Assembly: GCA_029210625.1 (NCBI GenBank)
Contig: JARGFU010000025.1
Coordinates: 1-64,000, forward strand
Source: Deltaproteobacteria bacterium
Lineage (GTDB): Bacteria; Myxococcota; Myxococcia; SLRQ01
Length of the DNA stretch: 64,000 nucleotides
Direction: 5' to 3'
A program made the position numbers and the translations under genes. Numbering within the stretch: position 1 is the stretch's first letter; each line of letters begins with the position of its first letter. The notes under the pieces are model-generated. The model was not told the DNA's origin and searched no databases. It saw only the letters and a list, made by a program, of their open reading frames with translations. Positions 54,128 through 64,000 of the stretch are shown piece by piece.

Positions 54128-56038
54128 ATGCGCCAGCGCTCTCTCTTCCTCCTCTCCGGTCTGCTCGTCCTCACCGCCGCCTGCGACGGCAAGGGCGGGG
54201 ACCCCGATGGTGGCAGCGCCACGCCGCCCGCGACCTACTGTCCCGGGCAGGCCGGCTGCGAGAACGGCGGCGGCGAGAGCGACGCCCTCCTGGCCGGCGC
54301 CGCCGCGGTGACGATCACCCCGCCGGCCTTCGAGGTGCCCCTGCCCGAGTACCTCCGGGACGAGGCCGCCCTCGGTCAGTGCGACGTGGGGGACCGCTGC
54401 GGTGAGCTCATCGACATCGCCACCCGCGACTGCGGCGCCGACATGCTCTGCCGGGGGGATCCGACCTACACCGCCCCGGACGCCGACGGCACCGAGCGCG
54501 ACGGCGTCTACGACTTCTTCCGCGACTGCGGCACCGACAACGTCTGCCCGGGCGACGCCGGCTACGTGGCCCCCGACGCCGACGGCACCGAGGGCAACGG
54601 CATCTTCGACGGCATGTGGCTGGCCGGCTTCGGCAACAACCGCCCGGCCACCGGGGTCCACGACGACCTCTGGGCCCGGGCCGCGGTGCTGGGCAAGGGC
54701 GACGTGAAGGTCGCCTTCGTCTACCTGGACCTCGTCGGCTTCTTCAACTCGGACGTGCGCAAGGTCCGCGAGGCGGTGCGCCAGAAGCGCCCCGAGGTCT
54801 TCGCCGACCTCGACTTCATCCAGGTGGGCTCCACCCACGTCCACGAGGTCCCCGACACCCTGGGCCAGTGGGGGCTGACCCCCGACGTCCCGGGCCTGGG
54901 CGTGCCCGCGGCCTACAAGTCCGGCGTGAACCTGGTCTGGCTCGACTACCTCATCGACCGCACCGCCGACGCCATCATCGAGGCCTACGACGCCGCCGTG
55001 CCCGCCACCGCCGCGGTGGCCACCGGCCGCACCGGCGCCGACGGGCTGGTCCGGGACAGCCGCGACCCCGTGATCATCGACGACACCATGGGCGTGCTGG
55101 TCCTCGACGACGCCGCGAGCGGCGACCCCATCGCCACCCTGGTGAACTGGGGCAACCACCCCGAGGTGCTCTCGGACATCAACAACCTCATCACCTCCGA
55201 CTACTCCCACTACCTGCGCGAGGCCGTCGAGAACGGCCTGCCCGCGGAGGGCAGCGCCCCGGCGGTGGCCGGCCGCGGCGGCATCTGCGTCTACCTCCAG
55301 GGCCCGGTGGGCGGCCTGCTCACCCCCCTGGGCACGGTCGGCGCCACCACCCGCGACGGCACCAACCGCGACGCCGTGCGCGACTGGGAGAAGGCCCGGG
55401 CGGTGGGCGAGCGCCTGGCCGAGGAGGCCCTCTCCCTGGCCGCCAGCGCCACGCCGATGAGCGACACGACGATCGCCTTCGGCGCGGAGGAGCTCTTCCT
55501 GCCGATGAACAACATCTTCTTCCAGGTGATGTTCGGGGTCGGCGTCTTCTCGAACCGGCAGGCCTACCAGGCGGACGGCAGCGAGTGGGCCGGCGGCCTC
55601 ATCGACCCCGACGAGAACTTCCCCTGGCTGAAGTCCGAGACCGCCCTCTTCCGGATCGGCAACCTCTCCCTCCTCTCGGTGCCCGGTGAGCTCTTCTCCG
55701 AGGCGGCCGTCGGCTTCGACGCGAGCTACACGCCCGCGAACAAGGAGCGGATCGACCCGAACAACCCGAACCCGCCGACCCTCCCCACCGATCCGCCGCC
55801 GGCCTACCGCGAGCGGATGGGCACCGAGCACACCTTCGTCCTCGGTCTCTCGATGGACGAGGTCGGCTACCTGGTCCCCAGCTGGACCTTCGAGCTCGAT
55901 CCCACCAGCCCCTACTACGAGGAGGCGGCGGGCGATCACTACGAGGAGACCAACTCCCTCGGCCCCAGCACCGTCCCGCTCCTGGAGGAGAAGCTCGAGA
56001 TCCTCTTCCAGTGGCAGGCCGCCGCGGCCGGCGAGTGA
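54128..56038 (+). CDS. Neutral ceramidase-like lipoprotein with inserted Asp-rich repeats
   Basis: A 636-residue lipoprotein (LTAAC, Cys at residue 19). The catalytic-type region resembles the neutral/alkaline ceramidase family: GVHDDLWARA, the HVHE zinc-like motif and NWGNHPEVL. The N-terminal part is interrupted by two tandem units of the pattern DCGxDxxCxGDxxY..PDADGTExxG (about residues 97-162), which look like calcium-binding loops. Such lipases cleave N-acyl bonds of sphingolipids or similar lipids. The natural substrate is unknown, and only part of the active site can be recognised by eye. Confidence 0.6.
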   Translation: MRQRSLFLLSGLLVLTAACDGKGGDPDGGSATPPATYCPGQAGCENGGGESDALLAGAAAVTITPPAFEVPLPEYLRDEAALGQCDVGDRCGELIDIATRDCGADMLCRGDPTYTAPDADGTERDGVYDFFRDCGTDNVCPGDAGYVAPDADGTEGNGIFDGMWLAGFGNNRPATGVHDDLWARAAVLGKGDVKVAFVYLDLVGFFNSDVRKVREAVRQKRPEVFADLDFIQVGSTHVHEVPDTLGQWGLTPDVPGLGVPAAYKSGVNLVWLDYLIDRTADAIIEAYDAAVPATAAVATGRTGADGLVRDSRDPVIIDDTMGVLVLDDAASGDPIATLVNWGNHPEVLSDINNLITSDYSHYLREAVENGLPAEGSAPAVAGRGGICVYLQGPVGGLLTPLGTVGATTRDGTNRDAVRDWEKARAVGERLAEEALSLAASATPMSDTTIAFGAEELFLPMNNIFFQVMFGVGVFSNRQAYQADGSEWAGGLIDPDENFPWLKSETALFRIGNLSLLSVPGELFSEAAVGFDASYTPANKERIDPNNPNPPTLPTDPPPAYRERMGTEHTFVLGLSMDEVGYLVPSWTFELDPTSPYYEEAAGDHYEETNSLGPSTVPLLEEKLEILFQWQAAAAGE

Positions 56039-56054: not shown

Positions 56055-57272
56055 TCAGCTCGCGTAGAGGGTGATGTCCGTGGCGGCCGCGAAGGCCATC
56101 CGGACCGCCTCGTCCCAGTCCGGGTGACGCACCATCACCCAGCCGTCGGAGAGCAGGGTCTGCTTCCAGTCGCGCCGGTGGCTCCCCGGCCGCAGGAGGG
56201 ACTCGTCCACGACCCAGGAGCCGCAGGCCTGCAGCCAGGCCTCCAGGCCCGTGATCCGGGTGATGCGGCCCTGCCCCAGCGCCCGCTTGAAGGTGATGCC
56301 GCAGTTGTACTTCCGCTCGGTGGAGGCCTCGAAGGCCCCCCAGCAGACGACCCGGGCCCACTCCCGGAAGAGATCGATGTCCCCGGTGAAGTTCATCTGG
56401 TCGACCAGCCGCGCCCCACCCGGGCGGCAGCCGATCTCCCCCAGCACGACCTCGCCCTTGGGGGTGTGGAACCACTCCATGTGGGTGAAGCCGTCGCCCA
56501 TGCCCAGCGCGCCGAGGACCTCGCGCCCGAGGGCGATGCCCGCCTGGAACTTCGGCGGCGCGAGGTCGCGCACCGTGACGATCACCGGGCTGATCCACTC
56601 CTCGCTGCGCGCCTCCAGGGGCTTGGGCAGGTACTGGGCGACGTTCTCGTAGACCGGCCGCCCGTCGACGCAGAGGGTGTCGTAGGTGAACTCCTCGCCC
56701 TCGACGTACTCCTCCACGCTCACCTCGGCGACGCCCCGGGTCAGTTTGATGACCTCCTCCAGGCGCTCGGCGTCGCGGCAGAGGTAGGTGTCGGCGCTGC
56801 CGGCGCCGGCGATGGGCTTGACGATGAGCGGGAAGCCGATCGCCTCGGCGGCCTCCCGCAGCCCCTCGACCGTGGACACCCGCGCCGAGGCCGGCACCCG
56901 CAGGCCCGCGGCGGCGACCCGCTCCTTCATCAGCTGCTTGTCCCGGAAGCCCAGCACCGTGTCGTGGGACATGCCGGGCAGGCCCCAGCGCTCTCGCATC
57001 CGGGCGGCCAGGAGCACGGTCGGCTCCCAGGCGGAGAGCACCCGCTCGATGGGCAGGTTGCGCAGCCACCGGGACGCGCGCTCGAGCACGTCCTCCTCGT
57101 CGAGGAGGCTCGGCACCTGCAAGTAGTCGTGGAGGTAGTAACGCGAGTCCGCCGGCAGGGCGGCCCTCGGCGTGTCCCCGATCCCATAGACCTCGGCGCC
57201 CACCTCGGCCAGGCCGCGGGTGAAGTGCCGCATCTCCGGTGGATAGACCGGACCCAGGAAGACGACTCTCAT
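56055..57272 (-). CDS. ATP-grasp ligase (carboxylate-amine ligase-like), copy 1
   Basis: A 405-residue ATP-grasp enzyme of the carbamoyl-phosphate-synthase/amino-acid-ligase type. FRDK (109-112) opens the ATP-grasp core, VKPIAGAGS (151-159) is the nucleotide loop, and THMEWF (263-268) with GEIGCRPGG (278-286) supplies the metal-binding Glu and the Arg. Such enzymes join a carboxylate to an amine through an acyl phosphate. Copies 2 and 3 (57323 and 60008) share these motifs in the same order. It is divergent from copy 2 over 50 bases; TAGCGT ends eight bases before its start. Substrates are unknown. Confidence 0.8.
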   Translation of the reverse strand: MRVVFLGPVYPPEMRHFTRGLAEVGAEVYGIGDTPRAALPADSRYYLHDYLQVPSLLDEEDVLERASRWLRNLPIERVLSAWEPTVLLAARMRERWGLPGMSHDTVLGFRDKQLMKERVAAAGLRVPASARVSTVEGLREAAEAIGFPLIVKPIAGAGSADTYLCRDAERLEEVIKLTRGVAEVSVEEYVEGEEFTYDTLCVDGRPVYENVAQYLPKPLEARSEEWISPVIVTVRDLAPPKFQAGIALGREVLGALGMGDGFTHMEWFHTPKGEVVLGEIGCRPGGARLVDQMNFTGDIDLFREWARVVCWGAFEASTERKYNCGITFKRALGQGRITRITGLEAWLQACGSWVVDESLLRPGSHRRDWKQTLLSDGWVMVRHPDWDEAVRMAFAAATDITLYAS

Positions 57273-57280
57273 CGAAGAAG

Positions 57281-57286
57281 ACGCTA
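57281..57286 (-). promoter_or_regulatory. Candidate -10 box of ATP-grasp copy 1
   Basis: TAGCGT on the minus strand ends eight bases before the ATG at 57272. Confidence 0.4.
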
Positions 57287-57308
57287 CTCCGGGCGGGGGG
57301 GATGGGGA

Positions 57309-57314
57309 TAGCCT
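57309..57314 (+). promoter_or_regulatory. Candidate -10 box of ATP-grasp copy 2
   Basis: TAGCCT ends eight bases before the ATG at 57323. The divergent -10 boxes are only 22 bases apart, so the two promoters overlap and may exclude each other. Confidence 0.4.
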
Positions 57315-57322
57315 ACAGTCCG

Positions 57323-58537
57323 ATGCGTTCCGTCGTCTTCGCCGCCCCCTTCCTCCTGGAGACCTCCCTGCGCTTCGCCCGGGCGGCGGCGCGCCTCCCC
57401 GACGTGCGGCTCCTCGCCGTGGTGCAGGAGCCTCCCCCTCACGCCGACCGCTCGATCTTCGCCGACGTGGTGGAGGTGGCCGACTGCTTCTCGGTGCCCC
57501 AGCTCATCGAGGCGATCGAGCGGCTCCGTGCCCGCCACGGTCAGCCCCACCGCATCGTCGGCGTCCTCGAGCCGCTCCAGGTACAGCTGGCGAAGGCGCG
57601 CGCGCACTTCGGGGTGGAGGGCACCGACGAGGACACCGCGGATCTCTTCCGGGACAAGGCCCGGATGAAGGACCGCCTCCGGCAGGCGGGCCTGCCGGTG
57701 GCCCGCCACGCCCTCCTCGGGGACGCCGGGGAGGCCGCCGCCTTCGAGGCCAGCGTCGGCTACCCCATGGTCGTGAAGCCCCCGGCGGGGATGGGGGCGA
57801 AGGCCACCTTCCGGGTCCGCAGCGGCGACGAGCTGCGCGCGGCCCTCACGGGCATGAGCGCCAGCGCCGCGCACCCGATCCTCGCCGAGGAGTTCCTCCA
57901 GGGCGAGGAGGGGAGCTTCGACACGATCACCCTCGGCGGCGTGGTGCAGCACAGCTCGATCTCCCGCTACCTCCCCACCCCCCTCGAGGTGCTGGAGAAC
58001 CCGTGGATCCAGTGGCGCTGCGTGCTCCCCGCGCAGATCGACGGCCCCGAGTACGACGAGGTGCGGCGAGTCGGGACCGCCGCCATCGAGATCCTGGGCC
58101 TGCGGGACGGCTTCACCCACATGGAGTGGTTCCGCCGCGCCGACGGCAGCATCGCCATCGGCGAGATCGCCCAGCGGCCCCCGGGCGCCAACATCACCCG
58201 GATGATCGGGCTGGCGGACGACTTCGATCCCTACCGGGCCTGGGCGCGGGCCGTCATCGACGGGGCCTTCGACGGCCCCCACCCACGGCGCCACGCCGTC
58301 GGCTGCGCCTACCTGCGGGGGATGGGCCGGGGCCGGGTCGCTGGCTGCAGCGGGGTGCACGCCGCCCAGGAGGCGGTCGGGCACCTGGTGGTCGAGACCC
58401 TCCTGCCCACCCCGGGCGCGCCCCGCAACGACAGCTACGAGGGCGACGGCTACGCCCTGGTGCGCTCGGAGAGCACCGACGAGGTGATCCGCGCCCTCCA
58501 GACGATCATCGAGACCGTGAGGGTCCACTACCTGTGA
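57323..58537 (+). CDS. ATP-grasp ligase, copy 2
   Basis: A 404-residue paralogue of copy 1 with FRDK (109-112), VKPPAGMGAKATF (151-163) and THMEWF (265-270). The next motif reads GEIAQRPPG (280-288), so the Gly-Cys found in copies 1 and 3 is Ala-Gln here while the Glu and Arg stay. That may change the substrate pocket. The stop overlaps the glgA start by four bases (GTGA). It begins at the ATG after the TAGCCT box; an upstream in-frame ATG at 57239 lies within the divergent gene. Confidence 0.8.
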   Translation: MRSVVFAAPFLLETSLRFARAAARLPDVRLLAVVQEPPPHADRSIFADVVEVADCFSVPQLIEAIERLRARHGQPHRIVGVLEPLQVQLAKARAHFGVEGTDEDTADLFRDKARMKDRLRQAGLPVARHALLGDAGEAAAFEASVGYPMVVKPPAGMGAKATFRVRSGDELRAALTGMSASAAHPILAEEFLQGEEGSFDTITLGGVVQHSSISRYLPTPLEVLENPWIQWRCVLPAQIDGPEYDEVRRVGTAAIEILGLRDGFTHMEWFRRADGSIAIGEIAQRPPGANITRMIGLADDFDPYRAWARAVIDGAFDGPHPRRHAVGCAYLRGMGRGRVAGCSGVHAAQEAVGHLVVETLLPTPGAPRNDSYEGDGYALVRSESTDEVIRALQTIIETVRVHYL

Positions 58538-59976
58538 AGATCCTCTTCGTCTCCTCCGAGGTCGCGCCCTTCGCGAAGAGCGGCGGGCTGGGCGACGTGG
58601 GGGCCGCCCTGCCCCGCGCCCTGGCCGCGCGCGGTCACGACGTGCGGGTCGTCCTGCCCTGCTACCGCCGGGTCTGGGAGGGCGGCCACGACGCCACCGG
58701 CCTCCTCCCCCGCCTCGAGGTCGATCTGGGGCACCACCGCCTCGGCTTCGAGACCCTCGAGACCCGGCTCCCGGGGAGCGAGGTGCCGGTGTACCTGGTG
58801 CACTGCCCGCCCCTCTACGACCGGCCGAGCATCTACACCCAGGACGCCGACGAGCACCTGCGCTTCGCGCTGCTCTCCTGGGCCGCGCTGCGCATCGCCC
58901 AGCAGCTCGCCTTCGCCCCCGACGTCATCCACGTCAACGACTGGCAGACCGCCCTCCTGCCCCTGATCCGGCGGGTGGCCTTCTCCTGGGATCGCCTCTT
59001 CGACCACAGCCGGACGGTCCTGACCCTCCACAACCTCGGCCACCAGGGCACCTTCCCCGCCCAGGTCCTGCCCGAGCTGGGGCTGGCCGGCGCCGCCGAC
59101 GCCTTCCACCAGGACCAGCTGCGCGAGGGAAGGCTCTCCTTCCTGCTCACCGGCCTGCTCTACGCCGACGCGATCACCACCGTGAGCCCGACCTACGCCC
59201 GGGAGATCCTGCGGCCCGAGCACGGCGTGGGGATGGACGGCTTCCTGCGCGCCCGCGGCGACGTGCTCTTCGGCATCCTCAACGGCATCGACCCCGAAGA
59301 GTGGAGCCCGGCGACCGACCCGCACCTGCCGACGCACTACAGCGCGGAGGATCCGGCCGGGAAGGCGCTCTGCAAGCAGGCGCTGCTCGCGGAGCTGGGC
59401 CTGCCCGCGCGGGAGGGCGTCCCGCTCATCGGGGTCGTCTCCCGCCTGGTCTGGCAGAAGGGCTTCGATCTGTGTGAGGCGGTCCTCCCCGGCGTCCTCG
59501 CCCGGCGCGCGGCGCAGCTGGTCGTCCTGGGATCGGGCGAGCCCCGCTACGAGGCCTTCTTCTCCCACCTCGCCCGCGTCGCCCCCGATCGGGTCGCCTT
59601 CCGGAACGGCTTCAGCGAGGCGCTGGCGCACCGCATCGAGGCCGGCAGTGATCTCTTCCTGATGCCCTCCCGCTACGAGCCCTGCGGCCTCAACCAGATG
59701 TACAGCCTCGCCTACGGCACGCCGCCCATCGTGCACCGGACCGGGGGGCTCGCGGACACGGTGGAGCTCTACGATCCCGACGCTGGCACGGGCACCGGCT
59801 TCGTCTTCGACCACTTCGATTCGCGGGGGCTCCAGTGGGCGCTGGAGGCGGCGCTGGACACCTACGACGACGCCGAGGCCTGGGCCGGCTTGATCGTCCG
59901 GGGAATGCTGGAGGAGAACGGCTGGAGCCACCGCGTGCCAGAATACGAGAGCCTCTACCGGGCGCTCCTGCCCTGA
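58534..59976 (+). CDS. glgA: Glycogen (starch) synthase, ADP-glucose type
   Basis: A 480-residue GT5 glycosyltransferase. The ADP-glucose-binding motif KSGGLGD starts at Lys15, and the C-terminal EPCGLNQMYSLAYG holds the catalytic Glu region; length is normal for GlgA. It elongates alpha-1,4-glucan. It starts with GTG, overlapping ATP-grasp copy 2, and 31 bases separate it from copy 3. No glgB, glgC or glgP is nearby, so it is embedded in the ligase cluster rather than in a standard glycogen operon. Confidence 0.9.
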   Translation: MKILFVSSEVAPFAKSGGLGDVGAALPRALAARGHDVRVVLPCYRRVWEGGHDATGLLPRLEVDLGHHRLGFETLETRLPGSEVPVYLVHCPPLYDRPSIYTQDADEHLRFALLSWAALRIAQQLAFAPDVIHVNDWQTALLPLIRRVAFSWDRLFDHSRTVLTLHNLGHQGTFPAQVLPELGLAGAADAFHQDQLREGRLSFLLTGLLYADAITTVSPTYAREILRPEHGVGMDGFLRARGDVLFGILNGIDPEEWSPATDPHLPTHYSAEDPAGKALCKQALLAELGLPAREGVPLIGVVSRLVWQKGFDLCEAVLPGVLARRAAQLVVLGSGEPRYEAFFSHLARVAPDRVAFRNGFSEALAHRIEAGSDLFLMPSRYEPCGLNQMYSLAYGTPPIVHRTGGLADTVELYDPDAGTGTGFVFDHFDSRGLQWALEAALDTYDDAEAWAGLIVRGMLEENGWSHRVPEYESLYRALLP

Positions 59977-60007
59977 AGCGTCCCCTCTTCCTCGTGCGAG
60001 GTCCCTG

Positions 60008-61237
60008 ATGCCCATCGACGTCGTCCTGCTCGAGCCCAGCTTCCCGGTGAACCAGCGCGAGTTCGCCCGCGCCCTCCACGCGGTGGGCGCGCGGGTCACC
60101 GGCATCGGTGAGCGGCCGAAGGATCAGCTCGATCCCGAGCTGCGCCACTGGCTCACCCACTACGAGCAGGTGAGCAACGTCACCGACGTCGGGCAGGTGG
60201 AGCGGATCGTGCGCTGGCTGCAGGGGCGGGTCGAGGTGCACCGCCTCGAGGCGACGGTCGAGGCGCACGTGATGTGCGCGGCGAGGGTGCGGGAGGCCTG
60301 CGGCATCCCCGGCACCAGCGTCCAGACGACCTTCCTCTGCCGGGACAAGCCCGCGATGAAGGAGGCGCTGCGCCAGGCCGGCGTGCCCTGCGCCCAGTCC
60401 ATCGGCTCGGACGACGCCGCCGAGATCGAGGACTTCGCCCGGCGGGTCGGCTTCCCCCTCGTGGTGAAGCCCCGCGACGCCGCCGGCGCCGCCGCCACCT
60501 ACCGCTGCGACGACGGCGCCGAGCTCTCGGCGGCCCTCGGCGAGTGCGGGGTCGGGCGCGGGGCCAGCGTCGCGGTCGAGGAGTTCATCGAGGGCCACGA
60601 GGGCTTCTGGGACACCCTCTGCATCGAGGGCGAGGTCGCCCACGAGTTCGTCTGCCACTACTACCCGAACGTCCTCGAGGCGATGCGCAAGCGGTGGATC
60701 AGCCCGCAGTTCATCGCCACCAACCGCCTCGACGCCGCCCCCGGCTACGAGGAGGTGAAGGCGCTGGGCCGCAAGGTGATCGCCGCCCTCGGCATCCAGA
60801 CCGGGGCCACTCACATGGAGTGGTTCTTCGGCCCCAAGGGGCTGAAGTTCAGCGAGATCGGCTGCCGCCCCCCCGGGGTGCGGGCCTGGGATCTCTACGC
60901 CGCGGGCAACGAGTTCGACATCTACCGGGAGTGGGCCAACTGCGTGGTCTACCACTGCCCGAGCCAGTCCCTCTCCCGCCGCTACTCCGCTGGCATCATC
61001 GCCTTGCGCCCCGATCGGGACGGCCACATCGTGGGCTACGAGGGAGTCGAGGAGCTCCAGGAGGCCTTCGGAGAGTGGATCATCGACGCCCATCTGCCCC
61101 CGGCCGGGACCCCCACCCAGCCCGTGGAGGCCGGCTACATGGCCAACGCCTGGGTGAGGATCAAGCACCCGGACTACGACCACCTGCGGCACATGCTGGA
61201 CCGGGTGGGCCAGACCCTGAAGGTGCGTGCGCGGTGA
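60008..61237 (+). CDS. ATP-grasp ligase, copy 3
   Basis: A 409-residue paralogue of copies 1 and 2: CRDK at 111-114, VKPRDAAGAAATY at 153-165, THMEWF (268-273) and EIGCRPPG (283-290). GAGG lies eight bases before the start. The N-terminal domain differs most from the other copies, as expected if each ligase takes a different substrate. It is followed within 13 bases by the S51-like gene, whose ribosome site begins right after this stop codon. Confidence 0.8.
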   Translation: MPIDVVLLEPSFPVNQREFARALHAVGARVTGIGERPKDQLDPELRHWLTHYEQVSNVTDVGQVERIVRWLQGRVEVHRLEATVEAHVMCAARVREACGIPGTSVQTTFLCRDKPAMKEALRQAGVPCAQSIGSDDAAEIEDFARRVGFPLVVKPRDAAGAAATYRCDDGAELSAALGECGVGRGASVAVEEFIEGHEGFWDTLCIEGEVAHEFVCHYYPNVLEAMRKRWISPQFIATNRLDAAPGYEEVKALGRKVIAALGIQTGATHMEWFFGPKGLKFSEIGCRPPGVRAWDLYAAGNEFDIYREWANCVVYHCPSQSLSRRYSAGIIALRPDRDGHIVGYEGVEELQEAFGEWIIDAHLPPAGTPTQPVEAGYMANAWVRIKHPDYDHLRHMLDRVGQTLKVRAR

Positions 61238-61250
61238 AGGGAGCCCGGCC

Positions 61251-62213
61251 TTGAACCTCGATCCCTCGAAGAGGCCCCCGCCGGCGGTGGTGCTGCTGGG
61301 CGCCCAGCGCTACGGCGGCACCGTCGTGGAGGAGGTGCGTCACCTCGAGGTGAGCGGACGCATCGCCCTGGTGACGGCCGGCTGGCAGGAGCGGGAGGCG
61401 GAGGATCAGGAGCTGCGCTCTCACCTCGAGGCCGACGCGGTGAACCTCGAGCTCCACCGCCGGGCCGAGGAGGTCTTCGCCGCGGATCCCGAGCTGGCGG
61501 CGGCCCACCGGACGCGGCAGCAGATGCTGCGCCACAAGCAGGACTTCTACCGGGTGCGGCTCGAGTTCGCGCTGGAGGCCGACCACGTCATCCGGCAGCG
61601 CACCGCCCCCCCGGAGGTGCTGCGCCAGGAGGAGGAGGCCTCCCTCGCGGCGATCCGCGCGCTCGACGAGTACCACCTCGGGCAGTGCGACCGGGTCCAC
61701 GCCGAGTTCGAGGCGGCGATGAAGCCGGCGAACCGGCCCGCGCTGGCGCGGCAAAGGGAGGAGGTCGCCGAGCTGATCGCCGGCTCCTCGGCCCTGGCCA
61801 TCGCCGGCGGGCACGTGGCCTCCCTGGTCAACCGCCTCCGCATGTTCGGGGTGGCCTCGGCCCTCGATGGCCAGCTCGTCTTCGCCTGGTCGGCCGGGGC
61901 GATGGCCCTCACCGAGCGGATCGTGCTCTTCCACGACGACCCGCCCCAGGGGCCGGGGGCCTCGGAGATCCTCGATCGGGGCCTGGGGCTGGTCCCCTCG
62001 GTGGTGGCCCTGCCCCAGCCCGAGACCCGCCTGCGGCTGGAGGATCCCGAACGCGTGGGCGTGCTGGCGAGCCGCTTCGCGCCGGCCGCCTGCCTCACCC
62101 TCGCCGCGGGCGCGCACGTGACCTTCCGCGACGGAAGGCCGGAGCGGCCCTCGGGGGTGATGCGCCTCGACCCCGAGGGCACCTGCGAGCCGCTGCAGGA
62201 GGTGCCGGCATGA
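61251..62213 (+). CDS. Peptidase S51/cyanophycinase-like protein with a possibly altered triad
   Basis: A 320-residue protein with the class I glutamine-amidotransferase-like fold of peptidase E and cyanophycinase. The nucleophile elbow reads FAWSAGAMAL with Ser214, preceded by LAIAGGHVASLV. The segment where I would expect the catalytic His reads ALPQPETRL, so the His may be replaced by Gln; this needs alignment. Between the first strand and the Gly-rich loop lies a helical insertion of about 130 residues. The TTG at 61251 has AAGGGAG seven bases upstream; a GTG at 61227 is the alternative. The stop overlaps the esterase start (ATGA). Confidence 0.6.
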   Translation: MNLDPSKRPPPAVVLLGAQRYGGTVVEEVRHLEVSGRIALVTAGWQEREAEDQELRSHLEADAVNLELHRRAEEVFAADPELAAAHRTRQQMLRHKQDFYRVRLEFALEADHVIRQRTAPPEVLRQEEEASLAAIRALDEYHLGQCDRVHAEFEAAMKPANRPALARQREEVAELIAGSSALAIAGGHVASLVNRLRMFGVASALDGQLVFAWSAGAMALTERIVLFHDDPPQGPGASEILDRGLGLVPSVVALPQPETRLRLEDPERVGVLASRFAPAACLTLAAGAHVTFRDGRPERPSGVMRLDPEGTCEPLQEVPA

Positions 62214-63346
62214 CGGGCGCCCTGCGCGAGCTCCTCGAGAGCCACCCCGACGGCGCGAAGGTCGACGCCTGGATGAAGGGGCGGCACTTCCCCATCGTGG
62301 AGGGAAAGTGCGCCACCTTCGTCTGGAGGGGGCACGCCGACGCGGTCAAGCTGCGCCACTTCATCTTCGGCCTGGAGTCGGCCCAGGACCTCACCCGCCT
62401 CGAGAACACGGACCTCTGGCACCTGAGCCTGGAGATCCCGCCGGAGTCGCGGGTCGAGTACAAGTTCGAGGTCCACCGGGGGGGGCACAGCGAGTGGATC
62501 GAGGATCCCCTCAACGGCCAGCGGGCCCGGGATCCCTTCGGCGCCAACTCGGTCCTGCAGGGCGAGGGCTACGTCGTCCCCGAGTGGACCCGCCCCGATC
62601 CTCGCGTCCGGCCCGGGAGGCTGGTGCCGCTCTCCCTGCGCAGCGCCGCCCTGGGCGGCGAGCGCCGGGGCCACATCTACCTGCCGGCCCGCCTGCGCGC
62701 CTCCCGGCGCTACTCGCTGGTCGTCGTGCACGACGGCTCCGACTACCTGAACTACGCCGGGATGAAGACGGTCCTCGACAACCTGATCGACCGGCTGGAG
62801 ATCCCGGAGCTCATCGTCGCCTTCGTGGACTCGCCCGATCGGCTCCTGGAGTACGCGAACCACGCCCAGCACGCGCGCTTCCTCACCGAGGAGCTCGTGC
62901 CCCACCTCTACGAGCGCTTCCCCCTGCGGAACACGCCCCGGGCGCGCTGCCTGATGGGCGCGAGCTTCGGCGGGGTGGCCGCGCTCTCCACCGCGGTGAG
63001 CTACCCCGGCTTCTGGGGGCGGGTGCTGGTCCAGTCCGGCTCCTTCGCCTTCACCGACATCGGTGATCACAACCACCGGGGCCCCCTCTTCGATCCGGTG
63101 GTGGCCTTCATGAACGGCTTCCGGGCCGCCCCGAGCGCCGTCACCGAGAAGATCTTCATGAGCTGCGGCGTCTACGAGTCGCTCATCTACGAGAACCGCT
63201 CGCTGGTCCCCCTGCTCACCGAGACCGGGATGCAGGTGCGCTTCGTCGAGGCCCGCGACGGTCACAACTGGGAGAACTGGCGGGATCGCCTGCGGGAGGG
63301 CCTCTCCTGGCTCTACCCGGGACCCTTGCTGATGGTCTACGAATGA
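62210..63346 (+). CDS. Fes/esterase D-like alpha/beta hydrolase with N-terminal beta-sandwich
   Basis: A 378-residue protein. Residues about 25-125 form an Ig-like sandwich (ATFVWRGHA, then YKFEV and DPLNGQRARDPFG) of the enterochelin-esterase-N or glycan-binding CBM48 type. The C-terminal domain is an esterase with the nucleophile GASFGG (Ser252) and His352 in DGHNWENW. It has no signal peptide. The start overlaps the S51-like gene by four bases. Enterochelin esterases cut ester bonds in siderophores; with a glycogen synthase nearby, an ester on a glucan is an alternative substrate. Both ideas are inference. Confidence 0.75.
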   Translation: MTGALRELLESHPDGAKVDAWMKGRHFPIVEGKCATFVWRGHADAVKLRHFIFGLESAQDLTRLENTDLWHLSLEIPPESRVEYKFEVHRGGHSEWIEDPLNGQRARDPFGANSVLQGEGYVVPEWTRPDPRVRPGRLVPLSLRSAALGGERRGHIYLPARLRASRRYSLVVVHDGSDYLNYAGMKTVLDNLIDRLEIPELIVAFVDSPDRLLEYANHAQHARFLTEELVPHLYERFPLRNTPRARCLMGASFGGVAALSTAVSYPGFWGRVLVQSGSFAFTDIGDHNHRGPLFDPVVAFMNGFRAAPSAVTEKIFMSCGVYESLIYENRSLVPLLTETGMQVRFVEARDGHNWENWRDRLREGLSWLYPGPLLMVYE

Positions 63347-63367
63347 GGAAGCGAGACGGAGGAATCG

Positions 63368-64000
63368 ATGGGTGAAATCACGCGCAAGATCGGGCTCTCG
63401 CTCGGGGCCGACATCTGCTGGCCGGCCAGCTACGAGACCATCATGCGGGAGCTCGACCTGAAGATCCCCATGGGGGGAGACACCATCCGCTTCGAGGTCG
63501 AGCGCGTGTCGATCGAGCCCTTCCGGCTGCGCGCCGACTGCCAGTACGACGTGGTCATCGATCGGCTGACGCACTGGTACCACACCAGCCGCGAGTGGAT
63601 CAAAAAGGCCGTGTTGATGAACGACATCTACGTCTTCAACAACCCCTGGTCCCTGCAGTCGATGGAGAAGCACACCGCCTACTGCGCGATGATCCACCTG
63701 GGGATGCCCATCCCCGAGACCTGGCTGGTGCCCCCCAAGCAGTACCCCGCCGGCAACCCCGACCTGCGCCCCACCCTCCACCAGTACGCCAAGCTCTTCG
63801 ATCTCGGGCGCCTGGGCGACCTCGTCGGCTACCCGAACTACGTGAAGCCCTACGACGGAGGCGGCTGGCGCTCGGTGGTGAAGTGCTCGAACGCCGAGGA
63901 CCTCAAGGCCGCCTACGAGAAGAGCGGCACCGACGTGATGCACGTGCAGAAGGCCGTCACGCCCAGCGATCGCTTCGTGCGCACCATCGGCTTCGGGCCG
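63368..64000 (+). CDS. ATP-grasp ligase of the RimK/glutathione-synthetase type (N-terminal part, runs off the window)
   Basis: The visible 211 residues start after a GGAGG five bases upstream of the ATG at 63368. DVVIDR (61-66), the MEKHTAY segment and LGMPIPETWLV match the pre-ATP-grasp region of RimK and glutathione synthetase. YVKPYDGGGWRSV (158-170) is the nucleotide loop. It lacks the FRDK/THMEWF pattern of the other three ligases, so it belongs to a different ATP-grasp group. The catalytic C-terminal half is beyond the window. It follows the esterase gene by 21 bases and closes the visible cluster. Confidence 0.75.
   Translation, partial: MGEITRKIGLSLGADICWPASYETIMRELDLKIPMGGDTIRFEVERVSIEPFRLRADCQYDVVIDRLTHWYHTSREWIKKAVLMNDIYVFNNPWSLQSMEKHTAYCAMIHLGMPIPETWLVPPKQYPAGNPDLRPTLHQYAKLFDLGRLGDLVGYPNYVKPYDGGGWRSVVKCSNAEDLKAAYEKSGTDVMHVQKAVTPSDRFVRTIGFGP

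Follow-up and report, generated by a model that had tools for sequence, protein, structure and literature searches.

A conserved gene cassette of predicted ATP-grasp ligases, esterase-like hydrolases and a glycogen synthase in Myxococcota and other bacterial phyla

The DNA stretch analysed here (the window; 64,000 nucleotides, positions 1 to 64,000 of contig JARGFU010000025.1, assembly GCA_029210625.1) comes from a Deltaproteobacteria bacterium of the Myxococcota. Towards its 3' end lies most of a cassette of eight genes, AG1, AG2, GlgA, AG3, S51-like, Est1, AG4 and Est2, which brings together three ATP-grasp ligases and a predicted fourth, a glycogen synthase, a protein of the S51 fold and two hydrolases. 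The association of this cassette with alpha-glucan synthesis is real at the genome level, because its GlgA forms a cassette-specific clade and because glycogen genes lie beside the cassette in other phyla. The eight genes are tentatively read, at somewhat less than an even chance, as a cytoplasmic pathway, spread by horizontal transfer, in which ATP-grasp ligases make a small amino-acid unit that is joined to an alpha-glucan, or built with it, and released by the two hydrolases. The genes are arranged as follows.

AG1, 56055..57272, (-) strand: L-amino-acid-ligase-type ATP-grasp protein (PF13535/PF02222)
AG2, 57323..58537, (+) strand: ATP-grasp ligase paralog (PF02222)
GlgA, 58534..59976, (+) strand: ADP-glucose-type glycogen synthase of the cassette-specific clade (TIGR02095, 522 bits)
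AG3, 60008..61237, (+) strand: ATP-grasp ligase paralog (PF02222)
S51-like, 61227..62213, (+) strand: predicted S51 fold with an insertion of two long helices (PF03575 at 21.3 bits, under the cut-off)
Est1, 62210..63346, (+) strand: Enterochelin_N/CBM48-like domain and CE1-type hydrolase (PF11806, PF00756)
AG4, 63368..64000 in the window (N-terminal part) and on to window-equivalent 64606, (+) strand: predicted ATP-grasp fold ligase (L003:3369-4607)
Est2, window-equivalent 64646-65377, 3' of AG4: second PF00756 hydrolase

The seven genes described in an earlier sequence-only reading are all present in the window, as are the ligase motifs it named: FRDK in AG1 and AG2, CRDK in AG3, THMEWF and E-I-x-x-RP. 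Extension past 64000 completed AG4 and added the eighth gene, Est2, so that the cluster is larger than had been noted; murI follows Est2 on the opposite strand, and the contig reaches 77257. The same reading had linked the genes by overlapping starts and stops, which holds in substance for AG2/GlgA (4 nt) and S51/Est1 (4 nt, ATGA); AG3 and S51 also overlap, by 11 nt. AG1 lies 50 bases from AG2 and is divergently transcribed, and the eight-gene set is therefore not one operon. A secreted-looking protein encoded at 54128-56038 (+) adjoins the cluster and matches the neutral-ceramidase family PF04734 at 31.5 bits (cut-off 32.1); it is outside the conserved set.

Conservation and distribution of the cassette

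A scan of 84,980 species genomes seeded with AG4 yielded 113 relatives, from which the best 80 loci, with 57-72% identity, were retained. All 80 are from metagenome-assembled genomes (MAGs) and are distributed amongst Myxococcota, Acidobacteriota, Planctomycetota and Pseudomonadota, together with single records under other names. The question of whether the neighbourhood is conserved in relatives is thus answered, the same genes recurring in 80 loci and four phyla. All eight genes are found in 16 of the 39 loci longer than 19 kb, in several gene orders. Among these 39, Est1 and S51 are present in 38 each, Est2 in 36, AG3 in 29, GlgA in 25, AG1 in 23 and AG2 in 19; AG4 is present in all 39, a count that is not independent because AG4 served as the scan seed. 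The commonest adjacencies are Est1-AG4 (71), S51-Est1 (67) and AG4-Est2 (59), followed by AG3-S51 (33), AG3-GlgA (31) and AG1-AG2 (25), and on a larger scale the phyla differ by inversions and changes in the order of whole blocks. The distances of the gene families are correlated (Mantel r 0.45-0.88), with none of 200 permutations as high.

Co-occurrence was examined in the same 195 Myxococcota genomes throughout, with ortholog thresholds of at least 590 bits for AG3 and at least 548 bits for AG1. AG4 was found in 25 of these genomes, AG3 orthologs in 26 and AG1 orthologs in 25; the genomes are related, so that these counts are not independent events. Every AG4 carrier possesses AG3 (25/25) and 24 of the 25 possess AG1, the sole exception being G155, which is 78% complete. 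AG3 is found without AG4 in two genomes: in G179 both AG3 and AG1 are present and the contig end falls inside Est1, and G106 is 61% complete with AG3 split in two pieces. The cassette is patchy, occurring in 13% of the Myxococcota sample and in 5 of 149 Acidobacteriota, the seed included, and this patchiness, together with the similarity across phyla, suggests horizontal spread.

Among the genes that recur next to the AG4 loci, none was conspicuous as a transporter or export gene; many of the recurrent-neighbour clusters were disregarded as mirror-strand artefacts, which high-GC DNA produces. An N-formylglutamate amidohydrolase, guessed by eye to be one such neighbour, had no Pfam support in the copy tested (L012:16255-17232) and was dropped. 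A GCS2 protein with a CBS pair is encoded directly 3' of Est2 in about 20 mostly Myxococcota loci (L040:12004-15094, L011, L019, L035 and others), and an AstE/AspA-like hydrolase comes after it in those inspected. No GCS2-CBS gene was found in the host genome; the gene is therefore accessory and was rejected as a core member of the cassette.

Several related arrangements were encountered. In a Gammaproteobacteria MAG (L047:3162-5818), a RimK-like ATP-grasp protein with an RLAN domain (PF14401) and a GCS2 ligase lie upstream of the cassette core, and are a separate amidoligase pair next door. The Holophagae locus L080 (3747-18395) is an atypical form of the cassette: its GlgA is divergent (156 bits), it encodes two ligases of the AG2 type, and a large gene separates Est1 from AG4. 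A second cluster type without GlgA occurs in three Myxococcota genomes (L013-L015; G031, G050 and G012), with AG4-like (31-36% identity), AG1-like and Est2-like genes, a GCS2-like ligase and a subtilase-like gene, besides a 396-aa gene unmatched in Pfam and one gene that by eye resembles a glutamine amidotransferase. In Myxococcota without the cassette (L189-L191), a PF00756 esterase gene lies beside a remote homolog of AG1 (about 140 bits), so the pairing of ATP-grasp and CE1-type genes recurs outside the cassette.

The cassette glycogen synthase and its genomic context

The cassette GlgA is a GT5 glycogen synthase, scoring 522 bits against TIGR02095 (cut-off 328) and keeping the KSGGL (K-x-G-G-L: K, GGL) and C-terminal motifs. 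The 46 cassette-linked GlgAs form one clade (SH-like approximate likelihood ratio support, SH-aLRT, 99), with the exception of the divergent copy of L080/L137, and 24 non-cassette GlgAs from carrier genomes and from relatives fall outside it; the tree was a quick one, and its outgroup rows have long branches. The host genome encodes exactly two full GlgAs. The second, on contig C10, adjoins glgC, and glgB is on C17; with this canonical glgC-glgA pair elsewhere, the cassette GlgA is additional in this host. In many carriers outside Myxococcota, the cassette GlgA is the sole full GlgA above the cut-off.

The sequence-only reading stated that no standard glycogen genes adjoin, which is correct for the window and incorrect for its relatives. 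In Acidobacteriota, Planctomycetota and Pseudomonadota, the context of the cassette includes GlgC, GH77, phosphorylase, GH13-like and GDE genes. For example, GH77, a CBM48+GH13 protein and GlgC flank the cassette in L044; GlgC, GDE, GH57, a GT3-type glycogen synthase and a GT4/5 enzyme flank it in L084; and in L134 the genes after an AG1-GlgA-AG3 block encode GH77, a GlgC-like protein and phosphorylase. With a cassette-specific GlgA clade and adjoining glycogen genes in other phyla, the alpha-glucan link, offered earlier as a possibility, is stronger than had been proposed. The cassette thus shares with bacterial GlgC-GlgA glycogen synthesis the GlgA family and, in relatives, the neighbourhood, but its GlgA is in a separate clade. 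We know of no classical glg operon with ATP-grasp ligases or esterases.

Ligases, hydrolases and the S51-like protein

AG1, AG2 and AG3 have Pfam ATP-grasp matches above the cut-off and are three orthologous groups, each forming one side of a branch (SH-aLRT 99, 82 and 99) and each containing several phyla. Their conserved columns include EE, HMEW and E-x-x-x-RP, and AG3 is the most conserved of the three, with a mean column identity of 73% across phyla. The nearest solved chain to AG2 is 4wd3, an L-amino acid ligase (E 2e-20), which is also the best solved match of the AG3 profile. Against the curated models, the ligases reach 23-34 bits for purK (cut-off 318) and 22-27 bits for purT (cut-off 502), and a PurK or PurT identity was rejected on these scores. 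The earlier concern that they might be ordinary PurK, PurT or carnosine-type enzymes is thereby answered, with 4wd3 as the nearest solved relative; the families listed in the curated search included no model for carnosine-type enzymes. From their family, the ligases would make an amino-acid unit. The known L-amino-acid ligases (4wd3, BL00235, BacD) share the ATP-grasp fold and are the nearest solved relatives of AG2 and AG3. They work singly and give dipeptides, whereas in the cassette three paralogs are found together, alongside AG4, GlgA and a pair of CE1-type hydrolases.

Family searches with AG4 gave no match in either Pfam or NCBIfam, and the cluster is therefore invisible to routine annotation. 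A structure model was built on the ortholog from L019 (70% identical) with 49 sequences, with a predicted local distance difference test score (pLDDT) of 88.1. The model matches RimK, ArgX/LysX and Ddl in Foldseek (E about 1e-9), and the AG4 sequence itself has a weak match to Ddl; on this model, AG4 is assigned as an ATP-grasp fold ligase. The protein shares this fold with D-Ala-D-Ala and D-Ala-D-Lac ligases, RimK and ArgX/LysX, but differs from Ddl, RimK and ArgX in its low identity to them (about 11-16%), in a C-terminal helical domain that appears in the model as an addition to their fold and in lacking a family model. Its mean column identity across phyla is 69%.

Est1 is a CE1/enterochelin-esterase-type hydrolase, with PF00756 in 25 of 25 family members and Enterochelin_N in 20 of 25. 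The Ser and His are intact, and the GAS and DGHNW motifs are conserved. The closest solved structures are Fes and the CE1-CBM48 ferulic acid esterases, which have the domain layout and conserved Ser/His in common with Est1; unlike them, Est1 sits within an ATP-grasp/GlgA cassette. The conserved motifs of Est2 are GASIGA and HDW. In L031 (906-3053), the S51-like protein and Est1 share one open frame of 715 aa with Thr at the S51 nucleophile position, possibly a natural fusion or a sequencing slip.

The model of the S51-like protein (pLDDT 92.8) shows an S51 core that is interrupted at 88-165 by a pair of long helices, and Foldseek relates this model to peptidase E and cyanophycinase folds (6nqc, 3en0, 6a4r). 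In the nucleophile column, 58 of 66 members have Ser, four Cys, two Thr and two Ala, the window protein having S222. The catalytic-His column has H in 34 of the 66, with Q264 in the window protein. This column comes from a weak alignment to S51 (E about 1), so that loss of the catalytic His from the window protein is likely rather than proven. By catalytic Ser and His, the window protein would not belong with the S51 peptidases, and a peptidase or cyanophycinase role was rejected as the principal interpretation on the active-site columns. The suggestion that the protein cuts peptide polymers is accordingly not upheld, the His being probably missing from the window copy and about half of its relatives. 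The protein is probably a repurposed, non-peptidase partner.

Proposed pathway and alternative interpretations

The gene set, its co-occurrence, the GlgA clade of its own, the glycogen genes nearby, the conserved motifs of ligases and esterases and the degenerate S51 site are observed; the substrates, the step order and an amino-acid-modified alpha-glucan as product we infer. AG1-AG3 would convert carboxylates to acyl-phosphates and link amino acids, or units resembling them, stepwise into a short amide-linked unit. AG4, predicted to have the Ddl/RimK fold and strongly constrained, may make the final bond. Its acceptor would be a sugar hydroxyl, yielding an ester in the manner of VanA-type ligases with D-lactate, or else an amino group of a glucan primer. 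The cassette GlgA would use ADP-glucose to make or lengthen the alpha-glucan acceptor. Est1, with its glycan-binding-like domain, and Est2 may cleave the linkage, for turnover or proofreading, and the S51-like protein would be the repurposed partner. Joining of the amino-acid unit to the glucan is proposed because of the dedicated GlgA, the glycogen neighbours and the glycan-type esterase. A wider possibility, rated less likely than not, concerns glycogen or a similar alpha-glucan in several phyla: ATP-grasp ligases would attach amino acids or a short non-ribosomal peptide to it covalently, as decoration or as primer, and dedicated hydrolases would remove them.

Several observations weigh against a joined glucan. 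The S51-Est1-AG4-Est2 core occurs without a cassette-type GlgA nearby in L047, L076, L087 and L090, so that GlgA is strongly linked and not universal, and the GlgA of L080 is divergent; GlgA may be a helper rather than a core component. CBM48 (PF02922) matches one of the 25 Est1 members, the window copy, at 20.2 bits (cut-off 22.4), and Enterochelin_N, which the other members match, is not specific for alpha-glucans. We know of no ATP-grasp enzyme that forms esters on sugars, and the substrates of the cassette are not readable from sequence.

The product could be small and soluble, an oligopeptide that carries glucose or a compatible solute, and thus a metabolite rather than a polymer modification; the ligases would build the peptide, GlgA would glucosylate it or add a short maltosyl chain, and the esterases would recycle it. 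Four separate ligases are more in keeping with a small product of defined structure than with a polymer, a distinct GlgA clade is expected for a new acceptor, and the lack of a noticed export gene among recurrent neighbours agrees with it. However, the cassette GlgA retains normal glycogen-synthase motifs, glycogen-degrading neighbours suit a polymer better, and in the many relatives where it is the sole full copy it must serve bulk glycogen too; this explanation is considered somewhat unlikely. The peptide could instead be chemically separate from the glucan and switched on together with the glycogen genes, for example in starvation or in resting cells. Such a separation would fit the occurrence of the core, at times with AG3, apart from GlgA in some genomes, and the cousin clusters L013-L015, which have GCS2 and no GlgA. 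We judge it unlikely, since the inheritance of a single GlgA clade together with the ligases in four phyla, and the adjacency of AG3 to GlgA in 31 loci, exceed what shared regulation needs.

A combined carbon and nitrogen store, in which the ligases make a cyanophycin-like polyamide, the S51-like protein is its depolymerase and GlgA makes a glucan store alongside, is suggested by the cyanophycinase and peptidase E folds matched by the S51-like model and by the glycogen context. The cyanophycin system (CphA, CphB) likewise combines amide ligases with an S51-fold protein, but here there is no CphA beside the S51 protein, which itself probably lacks the catalytic His. No ligase approaches the cyanophycin synthetase cut-off (29-36 bits against 850 or more), and the probable absence of this His from about half of the S51 family, the window copy included, and the helical insertion also speak against a depolymerase, making such a store very improbable. 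Each gene singly belongs to a broad enzyme superfamily, as ordinary unrelated enzymes adjacent by accident would; chance adjacency is ruled out by the co-occurrence across phyla and the kept neighbourhood, and this explanation retains hardly any weight.

Gene clusters of ATP-grasp and GCS2 amidoligases were reportedly predicted by comparative genomics by Iyer and co-workers in 2009. Such clusters combine several amide ligases with hydrolases, as does the cassette, and the GCS2-CBS and AstE-like genes 3' of Est2 in about 20 Myxococcota loci extend the likeness. In the literature searched, largely without subscription papers and without the main survey of such clusters, no description was found of an ATP-grasp cluster tied to a cassette-specific glycogen synthase. 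ATP-grasp ligase clusters are already known, and this tie would be the new element. That a dedicated GlgA has been kept with four ligases of the amide type and two hydrolases that resemble esterases points to undescribed chemistry between sugar storage and amino-acid metabolism, and the cassette narrows the genes to be tested to a short list. The usual view of bacterial glycogen is that of an unmodified polymer of glucose; a decorated glycogen, if true, would mean that a universal storage polymer is chemically modified in a new way.

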